Positions 3,763 through 11,018 of a stretch of DNA of 11,018 bases are shown here, in pieces (the first letter of the stretch is position 1; each line of letters starts with the position of its first letter). The DNA is taken from the NCBI GenBank assembly GCA_016932895.1, contig JAFGCA010000631.1:1-11018 (forward strand). Direction: 5' to 3'. The position numbers and the translations under genes were made by a program. The DNA comes from Sedimentisphaerales bacterium (GTDB lineage: Bacteria > Planctomycetota > Phycisphaerae > Sedimentisphaerales > SG8-4). The notes below the pieces were generated by a model. It was given only the letters and a program-made list of their open reading frames with translations, was not told the DNA's origin and ran no database searches.

Positions 3763-5862
3763 ATGAGTTTGAAGAGTTTCTTCAATCCCCAGTCCGTGGC
3801 GATCGTCGGTGCGTCACGCCAAAAGGGGAAAGTGGGGTACGAGATCCTGATCAACATGCTCGGCGCCGGCTATGCAGGCAGGATTTTTCCCGTGAACCGG
3901 AAGGCCGACACGATCGAGGGCCTGAAATGCTACCCTGATCTGGAAGCGATTGGCGAGACGCCCGAGTTGGTGATCGTCATCATACCGGCCAAGTTCGTCC
4001 TGGACGTCATGGAGCAATGCGTCAAGATCGGGACGAAGGCGGTCATCATCATTACCGCCGGTTTCAAGGAGGTGGGCACCGAGGGCAAGAAACTGGAAGA
4101 GGAGGTGGTCCGCGTGGCCCGGCGGGGTCAGATTCGCGTCATCGGCCCGAACTGTCTCGGTGTCATCGTGACCGCGAGCAAGCTCAATGCCAGCTTTGGC
4201 GGCGACCTGCCTGCGGCCGGCAGTACCGGCTACCTCTCACAGTCCGGCGCGTTGCTGGCGGCGATCCTCGATACGGCCAAGGCCAGCGGCATCGGGTTCA
4301 GCAGTCTGTTCAGCATTGGCAACAAGGCGGATGTGGATGAACTGGATCTTGTTGAGGCCCTGGCGGCCGATCCCAACACGAAAGTTATCGCCGGATACTT
4401 GGAGAGCATTGGTGACGGGAATGCCTTCGTGCGTGCGGCCGAGCAGATCTCCCACAAAAAGCCGATTCTCCTGATGAAATCCGGCGGCACGGCGGCCGGA
4501 GCCAAAGCGGCTTCCTCACACACCGGCAGCCTGGCGGGCAGCGAAACGGCCTACGAATGCATGTTCGCCCGGGCCGGGATCATTCGTTGCGAATCGATCA
4601 CGCAGCAGTTTGATTTTGCCCAGGCGTTTGCCAACCAGCCTCTGCCCAAGGGGTCCGGCGTGGCCATCCTCACCAACGCCGGTGGCGCCGGTATCATGGC
4701 CGCCGATGCCGTCGAGCGGTTGGGACTGACCTTCGCCAAGCCCTCCAAGGAGACCGTCGAGAGACTCGCTGCAAAGCTGCCGGCGGCCGCCAATTTCCTG
4801 AACCCCTTCGACGTCCTCGGGGACGCGTTGGCCGATCGCTACGAGTATGCCCTGGACGTGGTCCTGGACGACCCGAACGTAGACACCGTTCTCGTGCTGC
4901 TCACACCGCAGGCGATGACCGAAGCCGGTCCGACGGCCGAAGCGATTGTCAGAAAGGCACGCGAGAAGCCGGAGAAGCCGATCCTGGCCTGTTTCATGGG
5001 CGCCGAGAAAGTGGCGGACGGTGTCAAGGTCTTCCGCGAGGCCCACATTCCCCAATACGAATCACCCGAAAGCGCCGTCGCCACGATCAAGGCGATGGCC
5101 GACTACGTTCGCTGGCGGGCCCGGCCCGGACGCGTGGTCAAGCTGTTCCCGGTCAACCGGCGCAAGGTCGAGAGCATTATCGAGCGGCATCTGCGTCGCA
5201 ATCTCATGGAGATTGGCGAAGCCGAGTCGAAGGAAATCCTGGAGGCGTATGGTTTTGCCACCCCGAAGGGCTCGATCGCCACGACCGCCGACCAGGCGGC
5301 TAACATCGCCCAGCAGCTCGGTTATCCGGTCGTGCTGAAGATCTGGTCGCCGGACATCCTGCACAAATCCGACGTTGGCGGCGTGAAGGTGGGCCTCAAG
5401 ACCGACCAGGAAGTGAAAGACGCCTTCGATCTGATGATGTACCGCATTCCCAAGCAGAGGCCGGAAGCCGACATTCTCGGCGTGTTGGTCCAGGAAATGT
5501 GCGCCAGCGGACGCGAGGTCATCCTGGGCATGAACCGGGACCCGCAGTTCGGCCCCATGATGATGTTCGGCATGGGCGGCATCATGGTCGAAGTGCTCAA
5601 AGATGTGTCGTTCTACCTGGCGCCGCTGACGGGCCAGGAGGCCAAGCAGATGCTGATGAGCACGAAGACCTACCAGATCCTCAAGGGGGTGCGCGGCCAG
5701 GAAGGGGTGGACATTGAGGCGATCGCCGAGGGGCTCCAGCGACTGTCTCAGTTGGTCACCGAGTTTCCGCAGATCAAGGAAATGGACATCAACCCGTACG
5801 TTGTTAGTCGTCCCGGCACGACCGCCATCGCCGTGGATGCCAGAATTGGTTTAGAGAAGTAA
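3763..5862 (+). CDS. ADP-forming acetate/acyl-CoA ligase, fused alpha and beta subunits
   Basis: This 699-residue protein belongs to the NDP-forming acyl-CoA synthetase family. These enzymes convert acetyl-CoA (or another acyl-CoA) plus ADP and phosphate to the acid plus ATP, reversibly. The domain order is a CoA-binding Rossmann domain (about 5-130, ending in GPNCLG at 128-133), a succinyl-CoA-ligase-like flavodoxin domain (about 150-290), a linker/ligase domain, and an ATP-grasp domain (about 475-695). Both phosphohistidine sites of active enzymes are present: His253 in SSHTGSLAGS (alpha-type) and His534 in HKSDVGG (beta-type). The enzyme is therefore probably catalytic, unlike the degenerate synthetase part of Pat acetyltransferases, and it carries no C-terminal GNAT domain. 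The ATG is preceded by AAAGGA at 3746-3751. The next gene starts after 1 bp, so translation is probably coupled. Acetate is the likeliest substrate from context; propionate or other short or aryl acids cannot be excluded. Confidence 0.92.
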   Translation: MSLKSFFNPQSVAIVGASRQKGKVGYEILINMLGAGYAGRIFPVNRKADTIEGLKCYPDLEAIGETPELVIVIIPAKFVLDVMEQCVKIGTKAVIIITAGFKEVGTEGKKLEEEVVRVARRGQIRVIGPNCLGVIVTASKLNASFGGDLPAAGSTGYLSQSGALLAAILDTAKASGIGFSSLFSIGNKADVDELDLVEALAADPNTKVIAGYLESIGDGNAFVRAAEQISHKKPILLMKSGGTAAGAKAASSHTGSLAGSETAYECMFARAGIIRCESITQQFDFAQAFANQPLPKGSGVAILTNAGGAGIMAADAVERLGLTFAKPSKETVERLAAKLPAAANFLNPFDVLGDALADRYEYALDVVLDDPNVDTVLVLLTPQAMTEAGPTAEAIVRKAREKPEKPILACFMGAEKVADGVKVFREAHIPQYESPESAVATIKAMADYVRWRARPGRVVKLFPVNRRKVESIIERHLRRNLMEIGEAESKEILEAYGFATPKGSIATTADQAANIAQQLGYPVVLKIWSPDILHKSDVGGVKVGLKTDQEVKDAFDLMMYRIPKQRPEADILGVLVQEMCASGREVILGMNRDPQFGPMMMFGMGGIMVEVLKDVSFYLAPLTGQEAKQMLMSTKTYQILKGVRGQEGVDIEAIAEGLQRLSQLVTEFPQIKEMDINPYVVSRPGTTAIAVDARIGLEK

Positions 5863-5863
5863 A

Positions 5864-10334: not shown

Positions 10335-10349
10335 CTGTATGTGAGCGAA

Positions 10350-11018
10350 TCAGCCTCGGCCTTTGATCAGGCTCTCGACTACGCTGGGATCGGCCAGGGT
10401 GGTAATGTCACCGAGGTTGTCCGTGCTCTTCTCGGCAATCTTGCGGAGGATACGCCGCATGATCTTGCCCGAGCGGGTCTTCGGCAGGGACGGGGCGAAC
10501 TGGATGGCCTCCGGTGCGGCGATGGGGCCGATCTCCTTGCGGACGTGCATGACCAGCTCTTTCTTGAGCTCGTCGTTTTCTTCCACGCCGTCGCGAAGGG
10601 TAACGAACGCGTAGAGGGCCTGGCCCTTGACCTCATGCGGCATGGGGGTCACGGCGGCCTCGGCGACCTTCTCGTGACTGACCAGCGCGCTCTCGACCTC
10701 GGCGGTCCCGATGCGGTGGCCGGAAACGTTCACGACGTCGTCGATGCGGCCCATGAGCCAGTAGTCGCCGTCCTGGTCGATGCGGCAGCCGTCACCGGCG
10801 AAGTAGATGTCATTGTACATGGTGAAGTACGTGTCGACGAAGCGGTCGTGGTCGCCCCACATCGTGCGCATCATGCCCGGCCAGGGCCGGCGGATGCACA
10901 GCTTGCCGCCTTCGTTGGCGCCGCATTCCGATCCGTCGTCACGCAGGACGACCGGATCGACGCCGAAGAACGGACGGCCGGCACTGCCCGGCTTGAGGGT
11001 GTGGGCGCCCGGCATCGG
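10350..11018 (-). CDS. acs: AMP-forming acetyl-CoA synthetase (Acs), C-terminal part, 5' end outside window
   Basis: Acs activates acetate with ATP and CoA, via acetyl-AMP, to acetyl-CoA; it is the high-affinity acetate uptake route. The window holds the last 222 codons of a protein usually near 650 residues, and the frame is open to the right edge. Visible landmarks are KPGSAGRPFFGV, a WPGMMRTMWGD segment, the hinge-region block GDGCRIDQDGDYWLMGRIDDV, NVSGHRIGTAEVESALV, and the C-terminal domain motif PKTRSGKIMRR. The Lys of SGKIMRR (codon at 10464-10466) corresponds to Lys609 of Salmonella Acs. Acetylation of that lysine by Pat, or by AcuA in Bacillus, blocks the adenylation half-reaction, and CobB or AcuC removes it. 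This makes the neighbouring GNAT domain and AcuC-like protein plausible regulators. The MFS transporter gene follows 81 bp downstream on the same strand. The identification is firm; regulation by acetylation is inferred from the conserved motif and neighbours. Confidence 0.95.
   Translation of the reverse strand, partial: PMPGAHTLKPGSAGRPFFGVDPVVLRDDGSECGANEGGKLCIRRPWPGMMRTMWGDHDRFVDTYFTMYNDIYFAGDGCRIDQDGDYWLMGRIDDVVNVSGHRIGTAEVESALVSHEKVAEAAVTPMPHEVKGQALYAFVTLRDGVEENDELKKELVMHVRKEIGPIAAPEAIQFAPSLPKTRSGKIMRRILRKIAEKSTDNLGDITTLADPSVVESLIKGRG

Follow-up and report, generated by a model that had tools for sequence, protein, structure and literature searches.

Reversible lysine acetylation of acetyl-CoA synthetase has been described in Bacillus, where AcuA and AcuC act on K549 of AcsA (PMC11910552, in the part covered here). 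In a second type of system the GNAT domain of Pat has been crystallised with the C-terminal domain of Acs (4u5y). Reviews divide bacterial GNAT protein acetyltransferases into five types, none of which has a CoA-transferase in the parts of PMC8556138 and PMC11254643 covered here. We have analysed a stretch of 11,018 nt from a Sedimentisphaerales bacterium (GCA_016932895.1, contig JAFGCA010000631.1; 'the window') in which a Pat-type GNAT domain is fused to a CoA-transferase. The fusion gene lies between genes for an ADP-forming acyl-CoA ligase (ACD) and an AcuC-type deacetylase, and a transporter and an AMP-forming acetyl-CoA synthetase (Acs) are encoded convergently. The cluster probably encodes a switch of its own that turns acetate use on and off, with Acs as the likeliest target of the GNAT domain. 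An initial annotation of the same DNA had named these five genes; all were found where it had placed them, with key residues kept. The features are as follows.

3763..5862, plus strand: ACD gene, alpha and beta parts fused in a single chain (PF13607, PF13549)
5864..7735, plus strand: CoA-transferase-GNAT fusion gene, 623 residues (PF02550, PF13336, then PF00583 at residues 499-601)
5864..7159, plus strand: CoA-transferase domain, residues 1-432; Glu241 codon at 6584-6586, GIGG loop codons at 6869-6880
7208..7732, plus strand: Pat-type GNAT domain, residues 449-623; Glu547 codon at 7502-7504, QxxGxG loop at residues 557-562
7744..8883, plus strand: AcuC-type class I deacetylase gene, 379 residues, TTG start (PF00850)
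8906..8933, minus strand: terminator-like hairpin 3' of the transporter gene, 12 pairs followed by a T-rich tail
8973..10268, minus strand: major facilitator superfamily (MFS) transporter gene, OFA superfamily, L-lactate/monocarboxylate type (NF049980)
10350..11018, minus strand: C-terminal 222 residues of the AMP-forming Acs, the gene being truncated by the window edge; codon of the acetylatable Lys at 10464-10466

The two halves of the fusion protein were assigned from solved relatives and from a predicted structure. A family I CoA-transferase makes up the first 430 residues; its nearest relatives are 4-hydroxybutyrate CoA-transferases (9vag, E 2e-129; 3gk7, Foldseek E 7.6e-48) and, by NCBIfam and solved structures, the 4-hydroxybutyrate and butyryl-CoA:acetate types. 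A GNAT domain occupies the last 175 residues, and E. coli PatZ (9it0, 9isq) and S. lividans Pat (4nxy, 4u5y) are its closest solved relatives; further Pat chains were also matched (4ava, 4orf and kin). In a phmmer search with this domain the E-values were 2.9e-23 for PatZ 9it0, 2.4e-19 for 4nxy and 5.2e-14 for 4ava, and the first GNAT other than a Pat in the list of solved structures was at 2.5e-4. An AlphaFold model of the fusion (mean predicted local distance difference test score, pLDDT, 86.5; predicted template-modelling score, pTM, 0.80) agreed with 4u5y in fold, with a Foldseek target TM of 0.91 and a root-mean-square deviation of 2.0 over 170 columns. Glu241, which we take to be the catalytic Glu of the CoA-transferase, is kept in all 77 aligned two-domain fusions (here and below the window is counted among the rows), and the GIGG loop, presumably functional likewise, in 76 of the 77. 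In the GNAT domain both Glu547, presumably its catalytic Glu, and Gly562 are invariant (77/77), with Gln557 kept in 75 rows and Gly560 in 68; we assume that the QxxGxG segment is the acetyl-CoA loop. One chain is therefore predicted to hold a complete family I CoA-transferase site (catalytic Glu and GxGG loop) together with a complete Pat-type GNAT site (catalytic Glu and QxxGxG loop). Because the nearest relatives of the GNAT domain are Pat GNATs, it is by homology and predicted fold of the right kind for modifying Acs.

By sequence the ACD and the deacetylase are complete as well. The ACD scored 561.7 bits against TIGR02717, slightly below the cut-off of 567.15, and its nearest solved relative is the 4-hydroxybutyrate-CoA ligase 8wzu (E 1.2e-166); H253, in the motif SHTGSL, is presumably the catalytic His and is kept in 63 of 63 aligned rows. 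The deacetylase matched PF00850 with 274 bits (E 2.1e-81) and has class I HDACs and HDLP as its nearest solved structures. Its H136, H137, D172, H174, D261 and Y300 are kept in all 35 rows, so that it carries the Hist_deacetyl fold, zinc ligands, His pair and Tyr of class I enzymes; the full active site described in the initial annotation is borne out. The Acs fragment scored 331 bits over positions 408-628 of TIGR02188, the cut-off of which (724.95) applies to the full length, and the PKTRSGKIMRR motif with the lysine pointed out earlier is kept in 19 of 19 Acs rows; family score and lysine are those of an AMP-forming Acs, as far as the fragment reaches. Pfam and NCBIfam gave concordant gene kinds except for the deacetylase, which no NCBIfam model matched. 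The ACD stop codon and the fusion start are separated by a 1-base gap, and 8 bases separate the fusion stop from the TTG start of AcuC, so 3763-8883, with a predicted complete ACD and a predicted complete deacetylase adjoining the two-site fusion, reads as a single operon.

Two earlier designations need qualification. The transporter belongs to the MFS and the OFA superfamily, as had been said, but it fails both oxalate/formate models (211.3 bits against a cut-off of 374.85 for TIGR00890) and passes the 'L-lactate MFS transporter' model NF049980 (343.7 bits, cut-off 320). The locus had been called a candidate acetate module, but the acid may be other than acetate, because both the CoA-transferase and the ACD are nearest to 4-hydroxybutyrate/butyryl types.

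A survey of genomes for co-occurrence of these genes, suggested by the initial annotation, showed conservation far beyond one genome. At least 8000 protein candidates match the fusion at E<=1e-30. A profile scan of species genomes gave at least 590 stretches, 578 of which encode relatives; the best 80 were retained and represent 79 distinct loci, in archaea as well as bacteria. At least parts of both domains lie in one frame in 78 of the 79, the exception (L074) being split. At L010:10001-11857, L074:9977-11845 and L030:4032-5960 the fusion or the ligase occupies two frames, through assembly error or decay; the L010 fusion is broken, yet the second frame carries both domains. ACD lies directly upstream of the fusion, counted from the matched start, in 61 of the 73 loci with >1 kb upstream (L039, with <1 kb, is excluded), and downstream only in three more. 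A deacetylase lies within ~10 kb in 34 of 79 loci from several bacterial phyla, for a chance expectation of ~1% of loci (69 matches in ~169 Mb of 40 genomes). Its position varies: directly behind the fusion, on the same strand ahead of ACD, or divergent. By identity 25 of the 34 are AcuC-type (>=45%) and nine more distant (<45%), seven of the latter in loci of Deltaproteobacteria, Desulfurivibrionaceae or Proteobacteria. Acs is near the fusion in 18 of 79 loci, and in 16 of those 18 the transporter is also present. Deacetylase and Acs occur together in 14 of 79 loci. They are also linked at L104:4272-13570 and L105:3244-9686, where AcuC, an MFS transporter and Acs form a cluster that lacks the fusion; the genomes concerned, G137 and G060, gave no match to a Pat-like GNAT. 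At L012:7884-17150 the ACD-fusion pair is in tandem duplicate, followed by a single deacetylase.

As a control we used 20 stand-alone CoA-transferases of the same family, from the better matches in Myxococcota (the phylum of G033) and in stretches of ~10-18 kb. Neither ACD nor deacetylase was found near any of them (0/20 each), and Acs was near one (1/20). Since ACD is found near fusions and is absent near stand-alone CoA-transferases, the ACD pairing tracks the GNAT domain. Among the two-domain fusions of Myxococcota, Acs-like matches were seen in 4 of 13 loci, all weak (27-31% identity). Deacetylase adjacency is lineage-dependent. From this control and the neighbour counts, chance clustering was rejected.

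We also examined partners across whole genomes. Among the source genomes of 40 loci chosen from the 79, a deacetylase was present in 39, a sirtuin in 10 and an Acs over the cut-off in 36, with a fragmented Acs in two of the other four. A second Pat-like GNAT occurred in 10 of the 40: two type-I Pat (L080, L081), one triple fusion (L082, see below), second fusions at L083-L085, the tandem copy at L012 and three with fusion-sized frames. In a survey of 150 genomes from the class of G005, with forms assigned by identity and open-frame length, 23 carried a close fusion, 20 a divergent fusion and 40 a type-I Pat; in three of the 23 close-fusion genomes (G068, G094, G153) the frame is short or broken. 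All 15 divergent-fusion regions examined, of 20, encode CoA-transferase-GNAT, and both Pat regions examined (L102, L103, of 40) encode ligase-GNAT. An AcuC-type deacetylase was found in 18/23 close-fusion genomes versus 2/127 others. A sirtuin was found in 18/20 divergent-fusion genomes versus 33/130 others, and in 7/23 close-fusion genomes. The close fusion goes with AcuC, and the divergent fusion with a sirtuin gene that lies away from the fusion locus. One or other eraser was present in 38/43 fusion genomes versus 28/107 others, and Acs in 41/43 versus 61/107. A separate Pat or CobB, which the initial annotation had noted could account for control of Acs, was sought in relatives. In favour of the proposed circuit, type-I Pat is rare in genomes with the close fusion (1/23 versus 39/127 others) and a sirtuin occurs in 10 of the 40 genomes above; among G001-G006 (the genomes of L001-L006) type-I Pat was matched in none and a sirtuin is present in two, G001 and G004. 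In a check of four type-I Pat proteins the motif of the catalytic His of the ligase part was seen in two and not in the other two.

A third arrangement places writer and eraser in one chain. At L082:1212-3509 (Myxococcota) a 766-residue frame, truncated by the contig end, runs from CoA-transferase through GNAT to deacetylase. A protein search restricted to the length class of this triple form gave 124 matches, 120 of them listed (P0121-P0240); PF13336, PF00583 and PF00850 occur in one ~1000-residue chain in 104 of the 120 matches listed. Residues were checked in the 109 listed proteins with >=890 residues. All six deacetylase residues are kept in 106, and the GNAT Glu is retained in 97 and replaced by Asp in 12. 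The Glu of the CoA-transferase is kept in 7 and is Asp in 100; the GIGG loop is found in none of the 109, with SLPS in its place in 40. The loss of the transferase site with retention of writer and eraser suggests that regulation, not CoA transfer, is preserved in the triple form. The 14 triple forms sampled (every eighth of those with >=950 residues) were placed in a 123-row tree of CoA-transferases, where they form one group with an SH-aLRT support of 100, by a quick method that carries a long-branch warning. A predicted model of P0141 (mean pLDDT 85.7) matches CoA-transferases and HDAC2. At two triple-fusion loci with context (L126 and L127, the latter ending within the gene) tblastn with the window proteins found no ACD, Acs or transporter, and Acs is present elsewhere in both genomes. 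Of 188 genomes in the phylum of G033, two (G033, G186) carry the form; at E<=1e-200 none was found in 297 genomes of the phylum of G036, where the search had no positive control.

ACD can convert an acyl-CoA to the acid with a gain of ATP, and Acs makes acetyl-CoA from acetate at the cost of two ATP equivalents. A cell with both enzymes would need Acs to be off when acyl-CoA is high. Such a requirement would be served by a Pat-type GNAT joined to a CoA-transferase that binds acyl-CoA and encoded next to ACD and AcuC. We consider it rather probable that the operon converts a short-chain acid (acetate or one close to it) to its CoA ester and back while setting the activity of AMP-forming acyl-CoA synthetases. 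At high acyl-CoA the CoA-transferase domain would bind acyl-CoA, and the GNAT domain would then acetylate Acs at its catalytic lysine, and perhaps kindred ligases too, turning them off, so that no ATP would be spent on rebuilding what ACD converts to acid and ATP. As acyl-CoA falls, AcuC would strip the acetyl group. In such a scheme the CoA-transferase domain would occupy the sensor place of the inactive ligase domain of PatZ, with its own active site intact.

Several observations weigh against this scheme, in which the GNAT domain was proposed as writer, AcuC as eraser and Acs as target. Writer and eraser have the right domains and residues, but Acs adjoins the module in less than a quarter of the loci, and the L005 chromosome (CP070675.1, genome G005, a single contig) encodes two fusions and AcuC with no Acs over the cut-off, none being found at E<=1e-70 with the window fragment as query. 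Acs is therefore not the sole target there, if the assembly is complete. The 1.9 Mb draft G040 likewise has a fusion and AcuC and no Acs over the cut-off. No deacetylase is visible in 45 of the 79 loci, many of which have short flanks; of all 79, 33 have 5 kb on both sides, and in these it was seen in 17 and not in 16, and in Myxococcota the two-domain fusions have a deacetylase in 0 of 13 loci and ACD in 6 of 13. ACD is missing upstream in 12 loci with >2.2 kb there (three of these have it downstream) and is in view at none of four archaeal loci, one of which (L078) has <1 kb upstream. A search with one sirtuin query found no sirtuin beside the fusion in any of the 79 loci. Type-I Pat also occurs in 6 of the 43 fusion genomes of the class survey, in which form assignments depend on frame length and counts are uncorrected for kinship; since the genomes share ancestry, p-values from this survey exaggerate the evidence.

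Some of these points would be expected if the GNAT domain were a lysine acyltransferase acting mainly on ACD, on the CoA-transferase itself or on fatty-acyl/aryl-CoA ligases, with Acs a secondary or clade-specific target. ACD adjacency (61/73) far exceeds Acs adjacency (18/79), and the L005 chromosome, without an Acs over the cut-off, keeps the module and six lower-scoring stretches of the Acs family. We nevertheless regard this as unlikely: Acs is present in nearly all fusion genomes of the class surveyed (41/43), Pat GNATs are known to target Acs (4u5y), and clusters of AcuC, transporter and Acs exist without the fusion. A different role for the first domain, supplying the donor for the GNAT domain, would make the mark butyryl or 4-hydroxybutyryl and AcuC a broad deacylase. 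The kinship of both CoA enzymes to 4-hydroxybutyrate/butyryl types and the intact CoA-transferase Glu in 77/77 two-domain rows fit that idea, but this site has decayed in the triple form, in which GNAT and deacetylase are kept, so that catalysis by the domain is dispensable there; we hold the idea to be improbable. Many GNATs modify small molecules. If GNAT and deacetylase acted here on amines or polyamines, their occurrence next to acyl-CoA enzymes would reflect a loose grouping of genes for acyl metabolism; the part of PMC11532494 covered does name polyamine amidohydrolases that have the deacetylase fold. This seems very improbable, as the best matches of the GNAT domain are protein acetyltransferases in both sequence and fold, the deacetylase is nearest to class I HDACs, and writer and eraser exist in single chains. 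An acetylation switch with Acs as its likeliest target remains the reading that we prefer.

The surroundings of the module were compared with related loci. Acs and then the transporter run convergent to AcuC, and this minus-strand pair ends ~90 bases from it. The hairpin at 8906-8933 is a consensus match only, one of 8 such matches versus 5.3 expected in shuffles. A 13-pair inverted repeat lies between Acs and transporter at 10294-10323; its T tail is on the plus strand only, so the repeat is no obvious terminator for the Acs transcript. Genes for SerA, a phosphoglucomutase (PGM) and a cation-efflux protein (CDF) precede the module (10-3548); this synteny is found in L006 and L012 and partially in L001 and L011. 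The loci closest to the window are from Planctomycetota or its subgroups, and at L001 the order is that of the window: PGM, CDF, ACD, fusion, deacetylase, transporter, Acs. A plasmid search returned 45 records, none of which spans the greater part of the query. Five were listed, all mapping inside the ligase with a coverage of <=15%.

Database annotation already names the two-domain fusion by both of its domains and the triple form by all three. No description of a CoA-transferase-GNAT or GNAT-deacetylase fusion, and no published function for the two-domain or triple fusion, was found in literature searched by title and start of abstract, subscription papers and preprints lying outside that search. 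We tentatively propose that the fusion represents a sixth type of GNAT protein acetyltransferase, with a CoA-transferase in place of the ligase-like sensor of Pat, and that in one lineage it has become a single-chain pseudo-CoA-transferase sensor, writer and eraser that may by itself set the modification state of acyl-CoA synthetases. If so, reversible lysine acetylation of acyl-CoA synthetases in many uncultured bacteria (Planctomycetota, Kiritimatiellota, Hydrogenedentota, Myxococcota, sulfate-reducer kin) and perhaps in some archaea would use a class of writer outside the five-type scheme, the regulator being physically tied to an acyl-CoA enzyme. The one-chain writer-eraser would offer a compact system for studying directly how acyl-CoA is sensed and how writing and erasing are balanced.

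The locus shares features with several described systems. As in Pat and PatZ, a large protein that binds acyl-CoA has a homologous GNAT domain at its C-terminus, and the neighbouring ACD is homologous to the N-terminal domain of Pat (9it0 versus ACD, E 1e-96); the locus differs in that the fusion partner is a CoA-transferase with an intact site and that ACD, its His retained, is encoded by a gene of its own. The related GNAT domains of S. lividans Pat (4nxy, E 2.4e-19) and of the cAMP-regulated Pat of Rv0998 type (4ava, E 5.2e-14) are joined to other regulatory domains in another order, according to the part of PMC8556138 covered. Solved family I 4-hydroxybutyrate/butyryl-CoA:acetate CoA-transferases share 41-45% identity with the first domain (3gk7, 3eh7, 2oas; structure alignment), but their chains consist of CoA-transferase alone, with no GNAT part matched. 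With acuABC of Bacillus, as described in the parts of PMC11910552, PMC13121692 and PMC11532494 covered, the locus has in common a GNAT writer, an HDAC-type AcuC eraser and an AcsA with the RSGKIMR lysine. Pfam showed no AcuB-like protein among the eight window genes, and no search was aimed at AcuA or AcuB. The writer in the window is instead of Pat type and fused to a CoA-transferase, Acs is convergent and ACD is added. If active as proposed, the locus would be a new form of the known control by Pat and AcuC.

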